Below, in pieces: positions 2,921-30,892 of a DNA stretch of 64,000 bases. Source of the DNA: Pycnococcus provasolii. Taxonomy: Eukaryota; Chlorophyta; Pseudoscourfieldiophyceae; Pseudoscourfieldiales; Pycnococcaceae. Location: positions 535,501 to 599,500 of the forward strand of contig OW568862.1 in assembly GCA_938743325.2 (NCBI GenBank). The letters run 5' to 3'. Numbering within the stretch: the stretch's first letter is position 1; every line of letters begins with the position of its first letter. The notes under the pieces are model-generated. The model was not told the DNA's origin. It saw only the letters and a list, made by a program, of their open reading frames with translations, and ran no database searches. The translations under genes and the position numbers were made by a program.

Positions 2921-5470
2921 TTAACGGCCGAACAGGGACCAAGAAGACTTTCTCGGCGAAGATGGAGCGCCATCCGCGTGGTTGTCATGCGACTTTGCAT
3001 TATTAGCGCGGGCGGTCATGTGCGTCGACGCCTGCAGAGAGATGCCCGTGTTCTCGGCATTTTCATGCTCGCGTTTTTTCGTGTAGAAATCCGAGCACAC
3101 TTCGCCACGCTGAGCGTCAATCCCAAGGCACGCTTCCTCACAATGTGCAAGATCGAGCAGGCGTTCTGCCGTAAGTTCCACATGCGCGATGTCGCGCCGC
3201 CGCCACTGGTACACCAGTGAAAAGCCAGCGCCGCGCCGATCCTCGGCCACAAGCGCCGCCGCACCTGTACGCACGCGATCGTGAGACCATGATGCCATGG
3301 ACGGAGAAGAGTACTCACCAGGTCGTGTGTCGATGTCCAAATAGCAAGGAAAGTGATTTCCCATATCAAAGCTCAAACTCAAGCGCATCGGATATCGCAA
3401 ATCCTCGCGCGGTGCTGCAGGCGGCGGCTGAGCTGCATTAACCGTCCGAATCCAAGCTTCACGCGACATGCCCTCGTGCGTGCTTTGCACAGGATTGTGC
3501 GCCACCACAAGCAGGCGCTGTCCCAGCAAAGTCACAGCAGCTACCCCTGCCGTGTTTGAGCGAAGTTCCGTTCGGATCACCGTTTGGCCACCTGCCATCG
3601 AACCCTGTGCTGGCATTGGCTCCCCCGCCATCGCACGAGACGCCTCGTATGCGCGAGATGCATTGTAGTTCACTGCAAGGTATATGAAGCCCAAGTTATC
3701 GCGCAGTGCAGCTCCGACGAGGCCGTTAGGCATTTCAAAAAGCGCCGGCTCACTTGCAACACCTCCTCTTGGGATGGCATTGCGATCTGGGTCAAGTGGT
3801 TGGGGTGCTCTGCGCTTCTTTCGCAGAAGCTGCCGGCGAGCGGGTGCAGCAGGGGCGCCGGGAGAGTGTCGAGCGGGTGCTCGTGGCGCTTCCGCCGCTG
3901 CGGATGCCTCGCGCTCGCGCACTGTGGTTGCGCGCTGATCGGCGCTGTCAGTCGTGGTGGGTAGCACGGTACCCTGCGGCACCTCACCTGAGATGCGGCC
4001 AGAAACGACCGACCACGACATCCCCTCGTCGTGCGTGAATCCGAAAGCACTCCACCCACGAATGCCACCGTGCTCACCACGCTCGTCCGCAGGTGTCGGA
4101 TCTGCGCTAGCGCCGAACACCCAAAATGGCGTGCCACGCCACGGCACAGCGATAGGAGCATGTCGATTTGGGCCTATTCCATGCACCGAATGCCCGCCCA
4201 GACGTGTCGGCGTCTTGTCCCAAGTCTTGCCTCCGTCAAAGCTGCGCGTGTAGAACGTAGCATAGCGATCACGATTTCGCCCAACGTGGAAAAAGAGCCA
4301 TATGGGAGCGTCGCCGTTCATGCGGTCTTTCGGCGGCGGCTGAAACAAAACCGGATTCCAGTGTGGTTCATCGAACATCGCTGGCTCAATCACGCGCGCG
4401 ATAAGCTCGGGTAGGCTCCAAAGAGCGCTCTCGCATCGTGGACCGCGCGCGCGAGCGCCGACGCAGGCTGGATCGGCCAAACCTGCTGCCTTAGCCCGGC
4501 GACGACTCAACCATATGCCAAATTCGCTGTCGTTCGACGCATCGTGCACGCGACGTGCGCGATCAAATGCGGAGAATTGCGAGCCCGGAGCATTTGCGCG
4601 CGCAAGTAACTGCCGTCGGCGCAACGGCACACCTTCCTCGGCGTCCTTTGCAGTACCGTCGTGATCTGGCCCTCTCACTAGGCTGTAAGACCGCATGGCG
4701 TGCCAAGCAACGAGCGTATCGCCATCAAGAGTGACCAGAACGCTGGGTGCGCCGAGCGCGCCGCCGTGTGCGATTTCGCGAAATGTGGTGCGGCGCCTGT
4801 CGTCCGATTCCTTGCCAAGCACCATTTCGCGCTCGATCAACACGTCTGCATGTTCCTCTGCGCCATAGTCCTCTACTGACGGCGGCTCACATCCCCACTT
4901 TCGTTTCTCGCCGTCAGCGTATGTGTACGGGAAGCCAGCAGGCTCGAGGCGCGGTGCTGAACGATTGCCGAGCCCGTGACCCTCCCAGCCGACCATGTGC
5001 TCCCTTACCTCGAGCTTCTCCGGCGGGCTCTGTAGCGTGCTCGCCCACCTGTCGTATCGGTCCCAGAGCATGCCGCACGTTACCGTTGAGCTGTGCCGAT
5101 TTTTTGGGTCTGCTGAAGCGACTCTCGCCGCCTCCACAGTCTTTTCCATGTATTGGAATGTTTCGTTCACCACCTTCTCGCTGTACTGCACGTCGGTCAG
5201 GTTGTCCATCTGTTCGTCGGCGGCAAAGGTTGAGTTCAGCTCCGCCTGCACCTCTGCAAGCGCCGCTTCCGTTCTCTGCTTGTTCGTTGGGAAGATGGCA
5301 AACTCGGGTCCGTAGTCGCGGGCGAACGTTCGCTTGTGCGCGGGAAATCGGTAGCCCGTTGCCTGCGGATCTTGCATCACCGCGGCATCGGCAAGGGCAA
5401 GGCAAGACCATGTTAAGATCAGGATGGCTGCATGCTTTCGCTGCGAGCTCGGCATACGCGCGCGGCGCAT
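2921..5470 (-). CDS. secreted sialidase-like (Asp-box/BNR) protein
   Basis: Protein of about 849 residues with a signal-peptide-like start (basic residues, then AAILILTWSCLALADA) followed by a sialidase-type beta-propeller. Two Asp boxes are clear, SFDGGKTW and THDEGMSW, plus a related SFDMGNHF further on, with stretches such as WLFFHVGRNRDRYATFYTR between them that resemble BNR-repeat exo-sialidase-like domains. A basic low-complexity insert (RRQLLRKKRRAPQ) sits mid-protein. I use the ATG at 5470; the in-frame ATG at 5557 would put 29 Arg-rich residues before the signal peptide, and the one at 5455 is also possible. Sialidase-like folds often have other glycosidase or binding roles, so the substrate is unknown. 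A second such protein is encoded at 21642-23465. Confidence 0.65.
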   Translation of the reverse strand: MRRARMPSSQRKHAAILILTWSCLALADAAVMQDPQATGYRFPAHKRTFARDYGPEFAIFPTNKQRTEAALAEVQAELNSTFAADEQMDNLTDVQYSEKVVNETFQYMEKTVEAARVASADPKNRHSSTVTCGMLWDRYDRWASTLQSPPEKLEVREHMVGWEGHGLGNRSAPRLEPAGFPYTYADGEKRKWGCEPPSVEDYGAEEHADVLIEREMVLGKESDDRRRTTFREIAHGGALGAPSVLVTLDGDTLVAWHAMRSYSLVRGPDHDGTAKDAEEGVPLRRRQLLARANAPGSQFSAFDRARRVHDASNDSEFGIWLSRRRAKAAGLADPACVGARARGPRCESALWSLPELIARVIEPAMFDEPHWNPVLFQPPPKDRMNGDAPIWLFFHVGRNRDRYATFYTRSFDGGKTWDKTPTRLGGHSVHGIGPNRHAPIAVPWRGTPFWVFGASADPTPADERGEHGGIRGWSAFGFTHDEGMSWSVVSGRISGEVPQGTVLPTTTDSADQRATTVREREASAAAEAPRAPARHSPGAPAAPARRQLLRKKRRAPQPLDPDRNAIPRGGVASEPALFEMPNGLVGAALRDNLGFIYLAVNYNASRAYEASRAMAGEPMPAQGSMAGGQTVIRTELRSNTAGVAAVTLLGQRLLVVAHNPVQSTHEGMSREAWIRTVNAAQPPPAAPREDLRYPMRLSLSFDMGNHFPCYLDIDTRPGEYSSPSMASWSHDRVRTGAAALVAEDRRGAGFSLVYQWRRRDIAHVELTAERLLDLAHCEEACLGIDAQRGEVCSDFYTKKREHENAENTGISLQASTHMTARANNAKSHDNHADGAPSSPRKSSWSLFGR

Positions 5471-5583
5471 GGTACCGTTGCGGCCGCGGCGGGCGACTGC
5501 ACGCGCTGCTTTCCGCGTGGGCTGGGCTGGCGAGGGGTCGCGATCTCGGCACGGCACCCGGCCGGCCGCGCCTGGGACTCTGG

Positions 5584-21641: not shown

Positions 21642-23465
21642 CTAATCCTTAAGTATCGTCACGACGGCTGACCGAATCCCACTAGGTGCGCCGTCGTCGT
21701 TCGAGCGCACAGCGTACGTTACGATGATATGGCCGATATCCAAGTCAACTGCAAGCTTATTATTATCCTTCTCGTCCTCCCCCGCCTTTTGATGCACCTC
21801 TTCCTTGGATTGCACATTGAGAATGGCGACGTAAGGTTCCGTCACGTGGATTGCGCCAATACCACGCGTTGACTCGACTGTCGTGACATGTTTCCATGTT
21901 CGACCCTCGTCGTCACTTGCAGCGAGCTCGAGATTTGTCGAACCCTTCGAACGCGCCTCGTACGCGGCCACAACCGCATCGCCAATCGTTGCAAGTGCAA
22001 CGTAACCTGCAGGCATCACCTGGAATGTGCAAAGCGATGAACGTGAGAATGTGCCGTGAACGCTTGGGGCAACCGCACGATACCATCGCGAGCCGCGCCG
22101 AAACAATATCAGTATACGACCTTCCGGCAGCACGGCAAGCGCGCCGTCGCTAGCACTGTCCGTGGCATCCACGGGCGCCCTCATCGAATGCCACGCGTCG
22201 CCGTCCGTCTCGCGCCACACGATACCAACGCCCGTCGCCATTCCTCCTAGACATGCTCTATTCACAACAGGGGCAACAACGCAACTCTGCCACCGTGCTG
22301 CATTCGGCGCCGTCGCATTCCCCGCGCACGACACCGTCATTGGAGGCCCAAGCGTGATCGCGCCGGTGATCGATGCAGGCCAGCGTATAGGTACAAAATG
22401 CGTAGTGCCCGCTTCGTGTATGGGGGACTCGGCGATTGCGCCAGCGGCAACGGGTGCGCCACGTCGCGCAGCATGCGCGCATGCATCCGGAACCTGGAGT
22501 GTAAGCGTTGCGCTTGTTTGCTCTCGCGCAACGTATAGCTGCGGATTGCCAATCCAAGTCGACTTCTTTGCTGGGTCGCCCTGCCCATGGGACCCGGCAA
22601 GAATGCGTCGCCTTCTCGTTAAACCTTCGTAGGGACGAACTGCCACCTTTCCGTGTCGGTGGAGGCGCGAGGCGACGGGCGCCAGCACTTGGAATGCTGA
22701 TGCGGCGGCGGCGGCGTCGCCAGACCCGGCGTCCTCGCCTTCGTATCCGTCTCCGTCGTCCGCGGAGGAGGATGTTGGCCAGACGGATCGCAGCACCGCC
22801 GTCACAATACCACCATTTAGCGTGGTCCCGACACGGCGTGTAGAATGCGCCACCGTCGGCACATCCCAGCGCAGTGCAAGCCCAGCGCCGTGCACGAAGC
22901 CAGCCTCATTGCCGTCAGCCTTCATACTCTCCGCCGTCGCGCGTGCCACTCTGATCGTGCGCGCCGCGACTCCCTTCACTCCCGCGCCTCCAGTGGTGTA
23001 CGCGACAACCGCTCCGTTCAAGCCGTCCGCAGAAATAGCTGGTGCGGCGAACGTGTGCCTGCTCCCACAGGCAACTTCGACCCATGCGTAGGAAGCACAA
23101 GCAGCTGCGATGGGTCCGTCTGCCAACGCGCCCGCCTTGTTCAGCCGCTGCGCTGTACAGCTGGGTAGTCGCCGCGCCGTCATCCGTTCCCACACTGCAG
23201 TGCAGCTTCTCCTCTTCTCACGCCGTGAGGCCGCACTTCCGTACGTTGCAAACGCAGCTGTGAATAGCGCAATTGTTGCCACGGCCGCTACCACGACACG
23301 TCGTCGCGCGTTGACCGAGGACGCATGCTTGTGCTCCTTGACGCCCGAGTACGTTACCGAGTCCGAGCGTACCTTTGCACGACCATCACCATTTCGCGTC
23401 ACCACGCTGTGGTGGTGTGGTTTGCCAGCACGCCGTGCCGATGACGACGCGTGCGTGTGGTGCAT
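21642..23465 (-). CDS. membrane-anchored sialidase-like (Asp-box) protein
   Basis: 607-residue protein with a basic His/Arg-rich cytoplasmic N-terminus and one transmembrane segment (RRRVVVAAVATIALFTAAFATYGSA, around residue 60), giving type II topology. The rest resembles a divergent sialidase propeller: VGIVWRETDGDAWHSM, ILILFRRGSRWYRAV, and a clear Asp box ASDDEGRTWKHV, with regular beta-rich blocks between. Only one canonical Asp box is seen, so catalytic function is uncertain. The domain family is shared with the protein at 2921-5470, but the two are distant. First in-frame ATG is at 23465. Confidence 0.55.
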   Translation of the reverse strand: MHHTHASSSARRAGKPHHHSVVTRNGDGRAKVRSDSVTYSGVKEHKHASSVNARRRVVVAAVATIALFTAAFATYGSAASRREKRRSCTAVWERMTARRLPSCTAQRLNKAGALADGPIAAACASYAWVEVACGSRHTFAAPAISADGLNGAVVAYTTGGAGVKGVAARTIRVARATAESMKADGNEAGFVHGAGLALRWDVPTVAHSTRRVGTTLNGGIVTAVLRSVWPTSSSADDGDGYEGEDAGSGDAAAAASAFQVLAPVASRLHRHGKVAVRPYEGLTRRRRILAGSHGQGDPAKKSTWIGNPQLYVAREQTSATLTLQVPDACAHAARRGAPVAAGAIAESPIHEAGTTHFVPIRWPASITGAITLGPPMTVSCAGNATAPNAARWQSCVVAPVVNRACLGGMATGVGIVWRETDGDAWHSMRAPVDATDSASDGALAVLPEGRILILFRRGSRWYRAVAPSVHGTFSRSSLCTFQVMPAGYVALATIGDAVVAAYEARSKGSTNLELAASDDEGRTWKHVTTVESTRGIGAIHVTEPYVAILNVQSKEEVHQKAGEDEKDNNKLAVDLDIGHIIVTYAVRSNDDGAPSGIRSAVVTILKD

Positions 23466-23658
23466 CGCCACCACACGCGCTTCAAATTCGTCTCCGTAGG
23501 TGGTTCTTTGCAAGTCCAGCTGATGTTATGTAACGAACCTCCAGTCGTGCGTTGGGCGGGGTGGTCCAAATTTTAACCCCTTCCTCCCAACATACCACCC
23601 TAAACTTTGACCTACTCCAGTCCCGGCCGCGAAAGATTCGCGTCACCATCACCGTTTC

Positions 23659-25762: not shown

Positions 25763-28700
25763 TCATCTCCATTCCGAAGATACATCTGACGCCGAAACTG
25801 GAGCAGCCGTCGTAGCAACTCGCAATTGACTCTGAGAGCGCCAAGTTTCGAATGTAACAGGCCAGGCGTTGGTTGATGTGTGCCACGCCATTGCATGCAA
25901 TAGCACCATATGAGATAATAGTCTTTCCATCGACGCGATTCTATTCTCCCACCAAGTTTCACAAGCCCCCGCTTCCGAGAAAAGCTCCAATAAGTTTGGA
26001 GCATCTGTGGAGGATTTAGGAACATCGTCGACCTTCACGCCTTCGCGAAGAATTGGAAGCTGAGACGATTCAGTCTGAGCGTCAGCTGACTGCATGACCA
26101 CTCCGCTTCCAAAATTCAAGAATGTCTCGCTGTGTTCCAGAGATGGATGCCTCAATGAGCGCTGGTGGCGGATGGACCCATTAGCCCAGCTTCCACTTCC
26201 AGAATCATTTCGATCAAGAGTCCCGCTCTTGTCTTGAAGCGTGCTGCCTGGAATTCCGACAACGCTCGCAAGCTTTGCGAGGTTCGCGGCGGAACCTTCG
26301 ACCGAATTCTCCATCCTTTCAGCGAAGCTTGACAATCTTGCCATGCTGCCTATAGCCGCTGCCGCCTCGAAGGCTCCCAGCATTCGTAAGGGACCTACTG
26401 CGGAGCTCGATTTCACGCCTGTTCTTGAGAATAATGGACGTACGCTATGCTCAGAAATGCTTTCCGACCGAGCCAAGCTCGCCACCATGGCATAATTTTG
26501 AGCAAGTGTATTCATGTCTTCGGCGTGTAGAGAGACAAGTGCGTGCATGCCAATAGCATAACTTCTATCAACCTCAAATTGCCCGCTAGGATTAGGGCTG
26601 ATGCCTTCTGTTATTTTCTTTGCTTCATTTTGCCCAAGATGTTTAAGTGTCTGCAGCTGATCTCCTGGACCAGGCATGTGTTTGAGCTCTTTCGCTGTGT
26701 TCTTTGCCACTGCATCAGATGTAGCTGCCGTCTCACCGCATGATGTGAATGTCCCCGATGCTAGACGTTCTGTGACAAAATCGGGTCGATGCTTTGGAAG
26801 AGCAACATGTCCATCCAGTGCCACGGAATCAATAAACGGATTGTGCCCCACGGTAATAACCTCTGGACCAAAACCCAGGTTGCATGGGCCCGCTAAACCA
26901 GCACCCGGACGTAGCCATCGCTTCATGTTAGGACGCAACCAGCTTGGAACAAAAGGGTGAACGATGCATTTTGCTTGCCGAAGTGCGAGAAGGATCCATG
27001 ATTCTGCGCGCATCTGTGACCACAGCCTTCCGTCGGGCCGACCAGCGAGGATGAGTACTCCTCGAACGACTCGGTGAGTAAACCTATGAACAAAGTGATC
27101 CACGGCAGATGCGCCATGCACATCGAGTCCGTTTGACGAGTAGCTCAGCGAAAAAAGTTTGCTCGCAAAAGCCTCGAGAGTTTGGTGCACGTAAGGCACA
27201 TCTGCGATCACGATCGTTCGCTTGCCCATTCTTGCAAACGGCGCCCTACACTGGTACCACCTAAGCGCAAGTGCACTCCACATGGGAAGGAAGATGTAGA
27301 TGATTGCGTCAATGCTCTTCAACGCATAAATGAGAAGGTCCCATAGACCAAATGCAAGTGCGGCTGATTGGCTGCGAGGCACGGGTTTAGCATCAGCGTT
27401 GATCAAATTCGGTACCTCAAGCGCACCATTCCCACATGCACGCAATGATAACGCATCGCCAAACGACTGTGCGTCACCCGAAGATCGCTCTGCACCGGCG
27501 GAACATGCCACGCGCGTTACGGCCCATAAACCGAATTGCGCGGCAGGCAGTTGCAAAATAACTATTGTCACAGCTATGTAGAACGCAGAGAGAATCCAAG
27601 ACCTTGGCGATTCAAGGATGTGTTCGGCCCAATGACGTCCAAGCGCGGTAAGATGAGAATGTGTCGCTGAGCCTTCGGAAGTGCCGACGATCTTTGGTAG
27701 AGCAAAGAGAATGCTCATATCTGAGCACCTACGCAAACCTAAAGCATTTTCCTCACTAAGCGTAATGGCTTCGGCAATCGCGACGTGATCTGGAGCTCCC
27801 GAGGAGGAGGCGAGTCTCCCAGTCGACGCGTTCCTGAGCATGCGAAATTTTGTACTGGGTGGGATGCGATTCGACGATGCTTCGATTGCACGTTCGCGTG
27901 TAGACTTTGTTGTACCCAATCCGCCATCACGGCGATCACGATGCGTCCTCTCCACGATGTAGAGCATCAACTCTGTAAGTGTGTGGTGCATTGCCAGCAC
28001 GCTCAACGAACATGGCTCAGATGGTCGCCAGCCTGCCATCGTGTCGAAAACGCAGCCCTTCCACGGGCAGCCTTTGTACACGTATTGTCCAACAGCCTGA
28101 GCCATCTTCGAGTCCACGCTCCCCGCAACGACGAAAAGGCGGTCTGGCGGTAACAAGCCTGCGAGAGCGTGCGTGGCGTGCATGGTTGGAAACGTTTGTC
28201 CGCTGTGGCTCAGCGCTACCACGATTGTTCTTTTCAGATCGATGTTGACGCTGCAGAAAGAAAACCCAGTCATGGCGAACGATCCCTTCGAGTTGCTAAG
28301 GACACCGATTACCTTATTCGCGGAGACGGGAATTACGCGCAGGCACGGGAAGAGGTTTTGCAGGTCACTTGCAAACTGCTCACCAACCCACAGCGAGACC
28401 TCCACACCCATTACGAGCACGTCAACGGCGACGCGCTCTGAAGCCACATCCGAAAGCGAATCAGAAGTGGCGTGAAGCTTGCGTAACACAGCCTCTCTGA
28501 TTGCCGCGTAGAAGTTGCGCGCTGTCTTGACATTGTATGAGGAACTGTCTTTCCATGACTCGCGAATCTTATTGAGTACCATCGGAACATCGGCAAGATC
28601 GTTTCCAACCAAATCACAAGCGCTTGGCACGGCTAATCTCTGCAGGCTCTCAACAACAGGTTGTTGGGAAATGTACGAGTTGTTGCCAAGCTCAATTAGA

Positions 28701-30892
28701 GAGGCGGGTGAAACAAACTCTGAAGGTTCGGCGGCATCGCCTAGGTGGCGAATACGTGCAGTTCCATATCCCGGTGCATCTTCGACATCAACGCCAATGC
28801 AATCGTCGTTAAATTCGTCCACGTTTGTGCTGTCTGCAGACTGCATGAATTCTGTGTTAAGTGAACGCGAAGGTACAGAGTCAGCAGATCCCGCCAGGCC
28901 GTGTTGACGCATAGCTCGCATCCACAGCTCTGGCATTCCAGAGCTGTGCGGAAACGGCTGGAAGCGTGTACTACGGCCACGCGAGGTGAACCAGGCCGCA
29001 TGCGATCGTTTTCCCACATCAAGCTCGATCACCTCGCCATTGCACTCGTCCATATCATGCCGGAAGCTCACTCTATCGTCTTCACTGTTGGTGTTGCCGA
29101 GAGAAGCGCTGTCCAACGTGTCTGACGATGTGCTACCTCCTCGCCAAGATGCGTCTGCAAAGTGCGTTCCTCGACCTCTCTCGTTTTCAAGATCTTCATT
29201 CGTGCCTGTGGTCACGACTGAAGCAAACTTGGACACGGCTGCCTCGACGTCATGCTGATCGTGCAAGGGATATGTCGCATTTCCTGTCGTTGAGCGGCGC
29301 TTCGGAAGTGGCGCATTCATCTGCGCAGTCACCTCACTTCCCCAAAGTATTGCGCCATTCTTTGGCGCGAACGAAAGGGACATAGGTTGCCCGCGAGATG
29401 CAAGTACCACGACATTGGGATCAAGCGTGGAGGTGGCAGACAGGCCGAACGAACCAACCGCATGCGCTAGAAAGACGCTCAGCGCACGGTACAGGTCGCC
29501 GTACAGGAAATTATGCAATGCGGCACTCGCCATGGCTGTCTCAATATTGCTGGCTGTGAGCTTTTGAAGGAACGGTTTGGAGGAGAATGCTGTCTGTGCG
29601 AGGTGAGAAGTCAGACTATTGATTGCCTCATCGGTCCAGCATTCCGCTCCCTGCCGCGTGGCATGCTCACCAAATACGACATCCGCTTCTGCCGCGGTAT
29701 TCACAAGATCGTCAGGCGTGAGAATCAGGTTGATGGCATCGTCGATATCCCGTGCAGCGCACAGCTGTACATACGCCAGTCGGATAGACAGCGCCCATAC
29801 CCCTTGCGTGCGGAGCAGTTCAAGTACGCCGGCGATCTTCACGCTGTCGCAGTCAGGCAGCTTCTGGGCATCCACGCCAAGCACACGGCAAAGCCACGCT
29901 CCGATATCACCCTGCGACACCACGTTGCCAAAGAGTGGGTAGAAGTCGAAGTCTCCGTTATGAGTTATGTAAGTCTCCGTGCGCTCGACTGCGTACTTCG
30001 TCCACGACGCGTCCGAGGTTAGTCGTCTCCACCCGAAGATGCGCCGCGTCTCCTCGAGAGGCGTGGGACGACCATCAATTCGAAATACATGGGGGTGTGC
30101 CTCAAAGCTGCTCGGCGTTGAGCTCGTGGCAAAGCGCGTGTGCCCCAGAAACGCTGCGTGCCCTTTGTCGTTTGCAGCCTTGCTCCTCCTGAGCCTATGT
30201 CGGAAGCCGTTGGCTAGGCCGATAGAAACATCCCCGCGCTTCGTGGGAACGTGCCGATATCGAACTGCTTTGCACCTACTGTCATCGCCTTCACGGACGA
30301 GGGTGACGATACCTCCCGACTGTCCACCGCGCACTGCCGTAGTAGCTGCCATAGCCTGAAGCATTTTGACGCTTTGCGCGAGTCTATCTGCTGCAGCAAG
30401 CGCAGAGTCCAGCGTGTCAGCGAGGACGAACGCGCCAAAGTTGCCACACTGGAATTCGTTGCTCATGGTGACTGAAAGTACCGGCTTGATTAGGTCGGTA
30501 ACGACACTCCCGACCGTCACGGCGACGCAAGCTGCCGCGACAGCACATGATGCTGGAGAATCTGCTTGGCTGCAAGCCCAAAGAGCCAGAGAGAAGGATG
30601 CCAGTATGCCCACCGTGTGCGTCACCACCTTTTGAGGTGTCGTAAGAAGTTGAAAGTGGCTGTGCACGACGCGAACCGACGGGTGCAAACGCTGCGCCGC
30701 CGAACGCGACAAGCCGCCTGTGAGAACAAAAAAAATGACAGCGCTAGGTTGTGTGTTGATTGAGATTGCGTTGATTGGCACTCGTGTGAAGCAGACTAGG
30801 CTTGCGAAGTGTGCACTTTCGTGGATTAGAAGAGAGAGCACGTACGCGAGGGCGTACACGTAGCATATTTCCAAGAGACACAGTAGAGGCAT
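25763..30892 (-). CDS. fusion of a membrane HExxH segment, class II glutamine amidotransferase and SIS domain
   Basis: 1709 residues, intronless. The N-terminus (residues 1-140) is hydrophobic, with HESAH at 24-28 inside a membrane span and an Asp133 in a second hydrophobic stretch, like M50-type intramembrane zinc proteases. A class II amidotransferase follows: Cys149 in QCGNFGAF, GHTRFAT at 250-256, HNGDFDFY at 311-318 and Asp329 in SQGDIGAWL, the usual glutamine-binding set of GlmS and PurF relatives. Because the nucleophile must be N-terminal in this class, cleavage before Cys149 would be required. A SIS (sugar-isomerase) domain spans roughly 770-990, with the phosphosugar motif SHSGQT near 894. 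Two more membrane segments lie around 1115-1200, then a further globular region. It is a GlmS-like fusion, but the sugar and product are unknown. Confidence 0.7.
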   Translation of the reverse strand: MPLLCLLEICYVYALAYVLSLLIHESAHFASLVCFTRVPINAISINTQPSAVIFFVLTGGLSRSAAQRLHPSVRVVHSHFQLLTTPQKVVTHTVGILASFSLALWACSQADSPASCAVAAACVAVTVGSVVTDLIKPVLSVTMSNEFQCGNFGAFVLADTLDSALAAADRLAQSVKMLQAMAATTAVRGGQSGGIVTLVREGDDSRCKAVRYRHVPTKRGDVSIGLANGFRHRLRRSKAANDKGHAAFLGHTRFATSSTPSSFEAHPHVFRIDGRPTPLEETRRIFGWRRLTSDASWTKYAVERTETYITHNGDFDFYPLFGNVVSQGDIGAWLCRVLGVDAQKLPDCDSVKIAGVLELLRTQGVWALSIRLAYVQLCAARDIDDAINLILTPDDLVNTAAEADVVFGEHATRQGAECWTDEAINSLTSHLAQTAFSSKPFLQKLTASNIETAMASAALHNFLYGDLYRALSVFLAHAVGSFGLSATSTLDPNVVVLASRGQPMSLSFAPKNGAILWGSEVTAQMNAPLPKRRSTTGNATYPLHDQHDVEAAVSKFASVVTTGTNEDLENERGRGTHFADASWRGGSTSSDTLDSASLGNTNSEDDRVSFRHDMDECNGEVIELDVGKRSHAAWFTSRGRSTRFQPFPHSSGMPELWMRAMRQHGLAGSADSVPSRSLNTEFMQSADSTNVDEFNDDCIGVDVEDAPGYGTARIRHLGDAAEPSEFVSPASLIELGNNSYISQQPVVESLQRLAVPSACDLVGNDLADVPMVLNKIRESWKDSSSYNVKTARNFYAAIREAVLRKLHATSDSLSDVASERVAVDVLVMGVEVSLWVGEQFASDLQNLFPCLRVIPVSANKVIGVLSNSKGSFAMTGFSFCSVNIDLKRTIVVALSHSGQTFPTMHATHALAGLLPPDRLFVVAGSVDSKMAQAVGQYVYKGCPWKGCVFDTMAGWRPSEPCSLSVLAMHHTLTELMLYIVERTHRDRRDGGLGTTKSTRERAIEASSNRIPPSTKFRMLRNASTGRLASSSGAPDHVAIAEAITLSEENALGLRRCSDMSILFALPKIVGTSEGSATHSHLTALGRHWAEHILESPRSWILSAFYIAVTIVILQLPAAQFGLWAVTRVACSAGAERSSGDAQSFGDALSLRACGNGALEVPNLINADAKPVPRSQSAALAFGLWDLLIYALKSIDAIIYIFLPMWSALALRWYQCRAPFARMGKRTIVIADVPYVHQTLEAFASKLFSLSYSSNGLDVHGASAVDHFVHRFTHRVVRGVLILAGRPDGRLWSQMRAESWILLALRQAKCIVHPFVPSWLRPNMKRWLRPGAGLAGPCNLGFGPEVITVGHNPFIDSVALDGHVALPKHRPDFVTERLASGTFTSCGETAATSDAVAKNTAKELKHMPGPGDQLQTLKHLGQNEAKKITEGISPNPSGQFEVDRSYAIGMHALVSLHAEDMNTLAQNYAMVASLARSESISEHSVRPLFSRTGVKSSSAVGPLRMLGAFEAAAAIGSMARLSSFAERMENSVEGSAANLAKLASVVGIPGSTLQDKSGTLDRNDSGSGSWANGSIRHQRSLRHPSLEHSETFLNFGSGVVMQSADAQTESSQLPILREGVKVDDVPKSSTDAPNLLELFSEAGACETWWENRIASMERLLSHMVLLHAMAWHTSTNAWPVTFETWRSQSQLRVATTAAPVSASDVSSEWR

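Follow-up and report, generated by a model that had tools for sequence, protein, structure and literature searches.

The window analyzed in this study, a 64,000-nucleotide stretch of Pycnococcus provasolii DNA, contains a reverse-strand frame that runs from an ATG start through 1709 codons without an internal stop (Table 1). An earlier note, made from the sequence alone, had described a single intronless frame, and this description was confirmed: the frame is open from ATG to stop, the genome holds three single-frame paralogs, and bacterial relatives carry the leader, amidotransferase and SIS parts in one frame, which also argues against a split gene. The frame is a real gene, and a chance frame is ruled out by the paralogs and homologs. 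Adjoining frames are of the MnmA, eIF5, tubulin-tyrosine ligase and ubiquitin hydrolase types; the gene is nuclear-encoded and lies in an ordinary nuclear setting, with bacterial contamination ruled out by these neighbours and by the presence of paralogs on two large contigs. BNR-type repeats were observed in two frames flanking the region (window positions 2921-5557 and 21642-23513 (-); 56.2 bits, the second below the cut-off).

Table 1. Features of the 1709-residue protein and their positions in the window
Feature	Residues	Window positions	Strand	Basis
Whole frame, plus stop	1-1709	25763..30892	(-)	ORF reading; two paralogs
Leader, M50-like; hydrophobic segments 5-23, 89-107, 117-135	1-148	30449..30892	(-)	Pfam, alignment, profiles, hydropathy
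HESAH	24-28	30809..30823	(-)	HEMAH and HELAH in paralogs
VGILAS, second membrane helix; position of the paralogs' AGW.AS motif	94-99	30596..30613	(-)	G95 nearly invariant, 16 rows
Thr-Asp, putative third metal ligand, 16 residues before Cys149	132-133	30494..30499	(-)	Alignments
Class II glutamine amidotransferase domain; extra poorly conserved stretch near 530-605	~149-625	29018..30448	(-)	Alignment, profiles
Cys149, putative N-terminal nucleophile after leader removal	149	30446..30448	(-)	Alignments, leaderless forms
Arg253 in GHTRFATSS	253	30134..30136	(-)	Alignment, profiles
His-Asn-Gly-Asp	311-314	29951..29962	(-)	Alignment
Asp349, invariant, proposed instead of Asp329	349	29846..29848	(-)	Alignment
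SIS domain	~820-995	27908..28435	(-)	Alignment; profile match to GlmS SIS1
SHSGQT	895-900	28193..28210	(-)	Ser897-Gly898 invariant
Membrane segment	1095-1113	27554..27610	(-)	Hydropathy
Membrane segment	1183-1201	27290..27346	(-)	Hydropathy
Conserved block after membrane pair	1216-1380	26753..27247	(-)	K1245, H1273 invariant
Conserved C-terminal tail (R..ATTAAPVS)	1645-1709	25766..25960	(-)	Alignment

Paralogs and distribution of the family

The algal genome searched (a 32.3-Mb assembly in 46 contigs) contains two further full-length copies, one of 1417 residues on contig C20 (33% identity) and one of 1487 residues on contig C2, ~290 kb away (32%). Both have their parts in the same order as the window protein, and HExxH, T-D, CGNFG, HTRFAT, HNGD and S/T-HSG-x-T are kept in all three copies. 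As the order recurs in bacterial relatives as well, it is not unique to this gene. The 1417-residue paralog (L017), and only that one, gave a weak single EF-hand-like match at residues ~1191-1236 (near 1212; at most 16 bits, below the cut-off), which perhaps reflects calcium control. The same assembly gave 51 matches to light-harvesting proteins, and the best solved relatives of one of these are photosystem I Lhca3-type chlorophyll a/b proteins, which marks the genome as that of a green-lineage alga; twelve matches of equal score (92.2 bits) lie on contig C31 in two clusters with changing strands (133072-142609 and 360395-366434), apparently through recent gene multiplication.

The three-row algal alignment, scanned against 84,980 species genomes, returned 77 pattern matches, from which 31 bacterial loci were confirmed (24 cyanobacterial, 5 Chromatiaceae, 1 Elusimicrobia and 1 Omnitrophota), a lower bound obtained with two pattern types. 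In most rows the match begins at the Cys or in the leader and extends almost to the C-terminus of the window protein. Among sampled genomes, the family was found in 3 of 386 Cyanobacteria (one being the sample's centre genome itself), 7 of 285 Omnitrophota at E 1e-40 and 14 of 384 at 1e-10 with the N-terminal profile, 3 of 198 and 3 of 340 Elusimicrobiota, and 7 of 195 genomes of the Thiocapsa order, three of these already known. The family is real, rare and widely scattered, and it is unnamed in Pfam and NCBIfam as tested: NCBIfam gave only weak GlmS matches, with TIGR01135 (GlmS/GFAT) scores of 9.8-18.6 bits where listed against a cut-off of 418.05, and a Pfam search with the leaderless protein L019 (E up to 1) gave no match. 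Literature searches found no description of this family, no viral contig was confirmed in searches with family alignments A1 and A2, and plasmids and phages searched with one query (L028) gave no match. Besides the family itself, no gene type adjoins more than 6 of the 31 loci, and most of the shared neighbours, read by eye, are of widespread response-regulator or kinase types.

Some Omnitrophota and Elusimicrobia copies are embedded in frames of 1,750 to 5,334 aa. The leader-amidotransferase module was observed inside frames of 2,682 to 4,621 aa in these two groups (L125 3319-17181, L126 6484-17142, L127 5941-18189, L129, L130 and L131); among those scanned with Pfam (L125, L126, L129, L130 and L131), only L125 gave a match over the cut-off, to a 2'-5' RNA ligase domain. 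On the best 35-row tree, the branches of which are long, the algal trio groups with L036, an HExxH Omnitrophota form (support 97/92); a single clade of the alga and cyanobacteria was not rejected (p 0.103), and a grouping of the alga with L021 was borderline (p 0.048). Descent from the plastid ancestor is one conceivable origin of the algal copies. Alignment A2 leaves out L041 and L049, the careful tree leaves out L069, L056, L063, L041 and L049, and alignments A4 and A5 leave out L017 and L018.

The amidotransferase, SIS and C-terminal regions

The amidotransferase motifs named in the earlier note at Cys149, Arg253 and Asn312-Gly313 are identical in all 32 rows comprising the window protein and its relatives, as are G150, N151, H311, D314, D349, E831, S897, G898, K1245 and H1273; G153 is also kept throughout, giving the catalytic Cys its CG..G context. 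The Cys, Arg, Asn-Gly and SIS motifs recur in both paralogs. The choice of Asp329 as the active-site aspartate fell away, this residue being Asp in only 2 of the 32 rows, and the invariant Asp349 is the proposed equivalent of GlmS Asp123, which binds the amino group of glutamine; the profile alignment with GlmS placed no partner for Asp123. Compared with 12 GlmS sequences, the amidotransferase region (32 rows) gave an hhalign probability of 96.6 against whole GlmS and of 97.1 (local) and 98.4 (global) against the GlmS amidotransferase part, with reversed controls at 0.1-0.3. The global alignment placed Cys149 on GlmS Cys1, in agreement with its earlier assignment as the nucleophile, and R253 and N312-G313 on the GlmS HTR and HNG motifs; Arg253 occupies the position of GlmS Arg73. 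Sequence searches of the PDB gave six matches with alignment A4, five of them GlmS, three weak matches with A1, one weak match with A5, and none with the window protein sequence.

Seven of the 31 bacterial loci, all cyanobacterial, are leaderless: an in-frame stop is followed by a start reading Met-Cys-Gly-Asn-Phe-Gly, and a search of the upstream DNA (1500 bases; 548 bases for L029) turned up no H[EG]xxH leader. An initiator methionine in front of Cys is generally removed after synthesis. A Met-Cys start at this site is what a mature N-terminus at Cys149 would predict, and comparison with these forms suggests that Cys149 is that terminus. Leader presence or absence changed at least five times on the 35-row tree, which together with the Met-Cys forms indicates that the leader is dispensable.

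The SIS region gave a probability of 49.8 against whole GlmS and of 70.0 (local) and 39.2 (global) against GlmS SIS1 alone, with reversed controls at or below 0.3. The SHSGQT motif reported earlier was likewise recovered, with Ser897-Gly898 identical in 32 of 32 rows and the motif kept in both paralogs. The earlier note had left unexplained an extra domain with two membrane segments after the SIS; the segments were found again, and the domain proved to be a conserved part of the family, its membrane segments being present also in L019, the leaderless form examined. The order of parts in GlmS raises the possibility that the region after the membrane pair, with the C-terminal tail, forms a second SIS; the profile test of this against GlmS was negative (at most 0.7, with L037 and L045 left out).

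The membrane leader and its putative active site

Of the 42 rows inspected for a leader, 33 carry one with H[EG]xxH and 7 carry none; the leader of L045 is without the motif, and that of L021 is of another type. The HESAH motif noted earlier in the first membrane span sits at the very end of the first hydrophobic segment, and all 16 of the aligned rows with a leader, HG forms included, have H24, H28 and D133. The Gly of the M50 LDG motif is missing, the window protein reading TDL and the family [STRA]D followed by other residues. Residues 14-106 matched Pfam PF02163 (M50) below the gathering cut-off (17.5 versus 27.2 bits, E 0.0028), and the full-length window protein scored 13.4 bits (E 0.05). 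M50 was the best or only M50-type match in 5 of 10 leaders scanned, always below the cut-off, and matched 7 of 30 members of alignment A4 at E up to 1. Pooled, 24 leaders (L021 left out of the profile) matched 17 M50 proteins with a probability of 87.1 over 71 columns, compared to 4.4 when reversed and 0.1 for the later membrane region of the same proteins; the three algal leaders alone gave 21.1 against M50 (reversed 0.1) and 14.7 against the bacterial leaders (reversed 0.5). The proposal that the first ~140 residues are protease-like is thus upheld in its motifs and in the pooled profile, but not by a Pfam match over the cut-off or by the algal leaders taken alone, and an M50-like leader is supported by motifs and weak profile similarity. 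In Pleurocapsa, L045 (4632-5094) lacks the start of the first helices and HxxxH and its near relative L044 has HELGH, so the former is possibly a broken copy or a sequencing error.

In 25 bacterial leaders, Lys and Arg make up 12.6% of residues before the first helix and 11.1% of the long TM1-TM2 loop but only 0.6 and 1.1% of the two short loops, which by the positive-inside rule would place HxxxH, the Asp, the Glu of the added helix (helix 0) described below and the amidotransferase on one, presumably cytosolic, face. The distance from this Asp to the Cys is 14 in 27 of 33 leaders, with 15 in two and 12, 16, 17 and 18 in the others, the last three being those of the alga. In the 25 bacterial leaders, from which L070 (no G motif found) and rows without an in-frame [PF]E are left out, the Asp-to-Cys distance has a standard deviation of 0.27 compared to 5.93 for His-to-Asp (109 to 127). 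In further Omnitrophota leaders, read by eye, Asp-to-Cys was 13 (L129, L130, L156), 12 (L155), 11 (L159) and 21 (L157). The near-fixed spacing suggests a tether that would hold the bond before Cys at a set place relative to the metal site, or it might merely reflect a rigid domain junction.

The window protein and both paralogs keep HExxH, whereas 26 of the 33 leaders read HGxxH, without the catalytic Glu. In 25 of these 26, an added membrane helix has at its beginning, 36-48 residues before the motif, a Glu (in PE, or FE in L030/L049); the exception, L025, has LPE at that place in another reading frame. L028 and L042 are examples of the HG/LPE form. Among the seven HE leaders, the three algal ones and L036 are without the helix Glu, and L044, L048 and L070 have both. 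L048, a compact relative from Thiocapsa, reads HELGH. The Glu/Gly exchange at HxxxH required at least three changes on the 35-row tree, the rows being related and not independent events, and the redundant pairs L030/L049, L042/L066 and L046/L069 count once each. Nine further Omnitrophota loci (L128-L130, L154-L159) were read after this rule was framed, and all six with M50-like leaders have at least one of the two Glu residues: L129 has HE, L130 NE, L155 NE plus LPE, L156 HG plus LE, and L157 and L159 an HE motif lengthened by one residue ahead of its second His. Since the S2P Glu is held to activate water (PMC10202637), HG leaders would be either dead or using another base, for which the helix-0 Glu is a candidate.

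The leader of the Elusimicrobia relative L021 matched PF02517 (Rce1-like) at residues 948-1083, with the Cys at 1093 (19.1 bits, cut-off 22.4, E 0.0017; E 1.1e-4 in the member scan), and contains EExxxR, FxxxH and HxxxN, motifs of the Rce1 family. If this call is true, the nucleophile is directly preceded by either of two unrelated folds of intramembrane protease, which is hard to explain unless the leader is there for cutting; the Rce1-like case is a single protein. In the Omnitrophota loci L128 (1942-7731) and L059, the membrane stretch ahead of the amidotransferase Cys (CGIVG) carries no M50-like motif and represents a further leader type; the leader of L158 is also of another kind, and L154 is masked in this region.

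Interpretation and comparison with known systems

The reading that we favor, and consider somewhat likelier to be right than wrong, is that the gene encodes a membrane-bound proenzyme related to GlmS. Its leader would be cut off ahead of Cys149, and in HExxH forms, the window protein among them, the leader itself probably makes the cut. The product would represent an undescribed GlmS-related family that joins a class II (Ntn-type) amidotransferase, a SIS domain, a membrane helix pair and a conserved C-terminal region, and it would be made as a proenzyme. The leader, as a small M50-like membrane domain, would hold metal ligands His24, His28 and Asp133 and catalytic Glu25 at the membrane face of the amidotransferase, and a cut between residues 148 and 149 would expose Cys149 as the N-terminal nucleophile. 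In the window protein this cut would most likely be made by the leader, in cis or between neighbouring copies; the cut enzyme would stay membrane-held through its later helices and transfer glutamine-derived ammonia to a phosphosugar-like substrate bound at the SIS part. We infer the cut, its agent, the metal, the substrate and the product, and our guess for the product is a membrane-side amino-sugar or lipid-sugar. The initial interpretation is thus partly supported: it keeps its M50-like leader and its nucleophile at the GlmS position, to which the Met-Cys forms are added, and loses Asp329.

The idea of a removed leader is well supported by sequence comparison. The proposal of a proenzyme draws on Cys149 in all 32 rows, the Met-Cys forms, the invariant H24, H28 and D133, the near-fixed Asp-Cys spacing, the shared membrane face, the pooled M50 profile, the Rce1-like leader of L021, and the precedent of the bacterial S2P SpoIVFB, which removes the pro-region of pro-sigmaK (PMC10202637). 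Counted against it are the HGxxH leaders, the loss of the LDG Gly, the algal spacing of 16-18, the weak algal leader profiles, the restriction of the Rce1-like case to one sub-cut-off protein, and the leaders of other kinds in L128 and L158. In particular, the absence of the HExxH Glu from 26 of 33 M50-like leaders argues against self-cutting as a general rule, and class II amidotransferases are described as cutting short propeptides autocatalytically (PMC9140057), which needs no protease.

It is conceivable, though unlikely in our estimation, that the amidotransferase cuts the leader off by Ntn autocatalysis at Cys149 and that the leader is a mere membrane anchor derived from an M50 protease. 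This would follow the route described for short propeptides and would accommodate both the missing Glu residues and the seven bacterial loci without a leader, but an anchor would not need His, His and Asp residues that are invariant even in HG forms, a hardly varying Asp-Cys distance, or a different protease-like leader in the same place in L021. We give little credence to the possibility that the leader is an effector acting on other proteins with the amidotransferase-SIS part as a sugar or nitrogen sensor; S2P proteases do act in signalling (PMC10202637), and the two domains could bind glutamine and sugar phosphates, yet all 32 rows have the same catalytic amidotransferase residues, leaderless forms retain them, and a near-fixed distance to the Cys would not be expected. 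Removal by another protease, such as a plastid or ER processing peptidase, with the leader doubling as a targeting signal in the alga, is similarly improbable: it suits a nuclear-encoded protein among ordinary eukaryotic genes for which no cutting agent has been identified, but leaves the conserved metal-site motif and the same layout in bacteria unexplained.

A broader and more tentative reading, which we regard as rather doubtful, is that intramembrane proteases of both M50-like and Rce1-like folds were captured as built-in maturases of an Ntn amidotransferase, each cutting just ahead of the nucleophile of the enzyme that carries it, with the Glu having moved from HExxH to LPE in most bacterial M50-like leaders, so that HGxGH and the LPE of an added neighbouring helix would surround an unchanged His-His-Asp metal site. 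The HG/LPE pattern would offer a natural experiment on whether an S2P site can function with its glutamate relocated. If the favored proenzyme reading is true, the enzyme would be switched on by a membrane protease that is part of its own chain, and two well-studied fields, Ntn enzymes and intramembrane proteolysis, would meet; a literature search pairing glutamine amidotransferase with site-2 protease found no paper common to both. It would also name a membrane-bound relative of an amino-sugar enzyme in algae and photosynthetic bacteria. A replacement for ordinary GlmS is ruled out: all 11 of the family-bearing bacterial genomes that were tested also encode a canonical GlmS, which means that the family serves a different purpose, and the alga has a GFAT-like protein (L004, a 768-aa frame beginning MCGIF, named by motif reading).

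Compared to GlmS/GFAT, the family shares the Cys nucleophile motif, HTR, HNG, the amidotransferase fold by profile and a SIS motif in the same order, but it has a leader and membrane helices, is about twice as long, and gives no second-SIS match. Its leaders resemble M50 proteins (PF02163) in having HxxxH on one helix, an Asp on a later helix, a G-rich second helix and, by charge, a cytosolic-side site, while differing in their sub-cut-off Pfam scores, the reduction of LDG to D, the frequent loss of the HExxH Glu (26 of 33) and their fusion before an amidotransferase Cys. Rce1/CPBP proteins (PF02517) are matched by the L021 leader; they have no sequence relation to the M50-like leaders and are absent from the window protein. 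As in the class II amidotransferases with short propeptides (MEROPS C44, e.g., PurF/GPAT), the Cys would have to become N-terminal (PMC9140057); in those enzymes, however, a propeptide of a few residues is cut autocatalytically and there is no membrane domain. The closest parallel in action may be SpoIVFB and pro-sigmaK, where an S2P removes an N-terminal pro-region near the membrane (PMC10202637), although there protease and substrate are separate proteins and the substrate is a sigma factor, whereas here both would lie in one chain and the substrate would be an enzyme.
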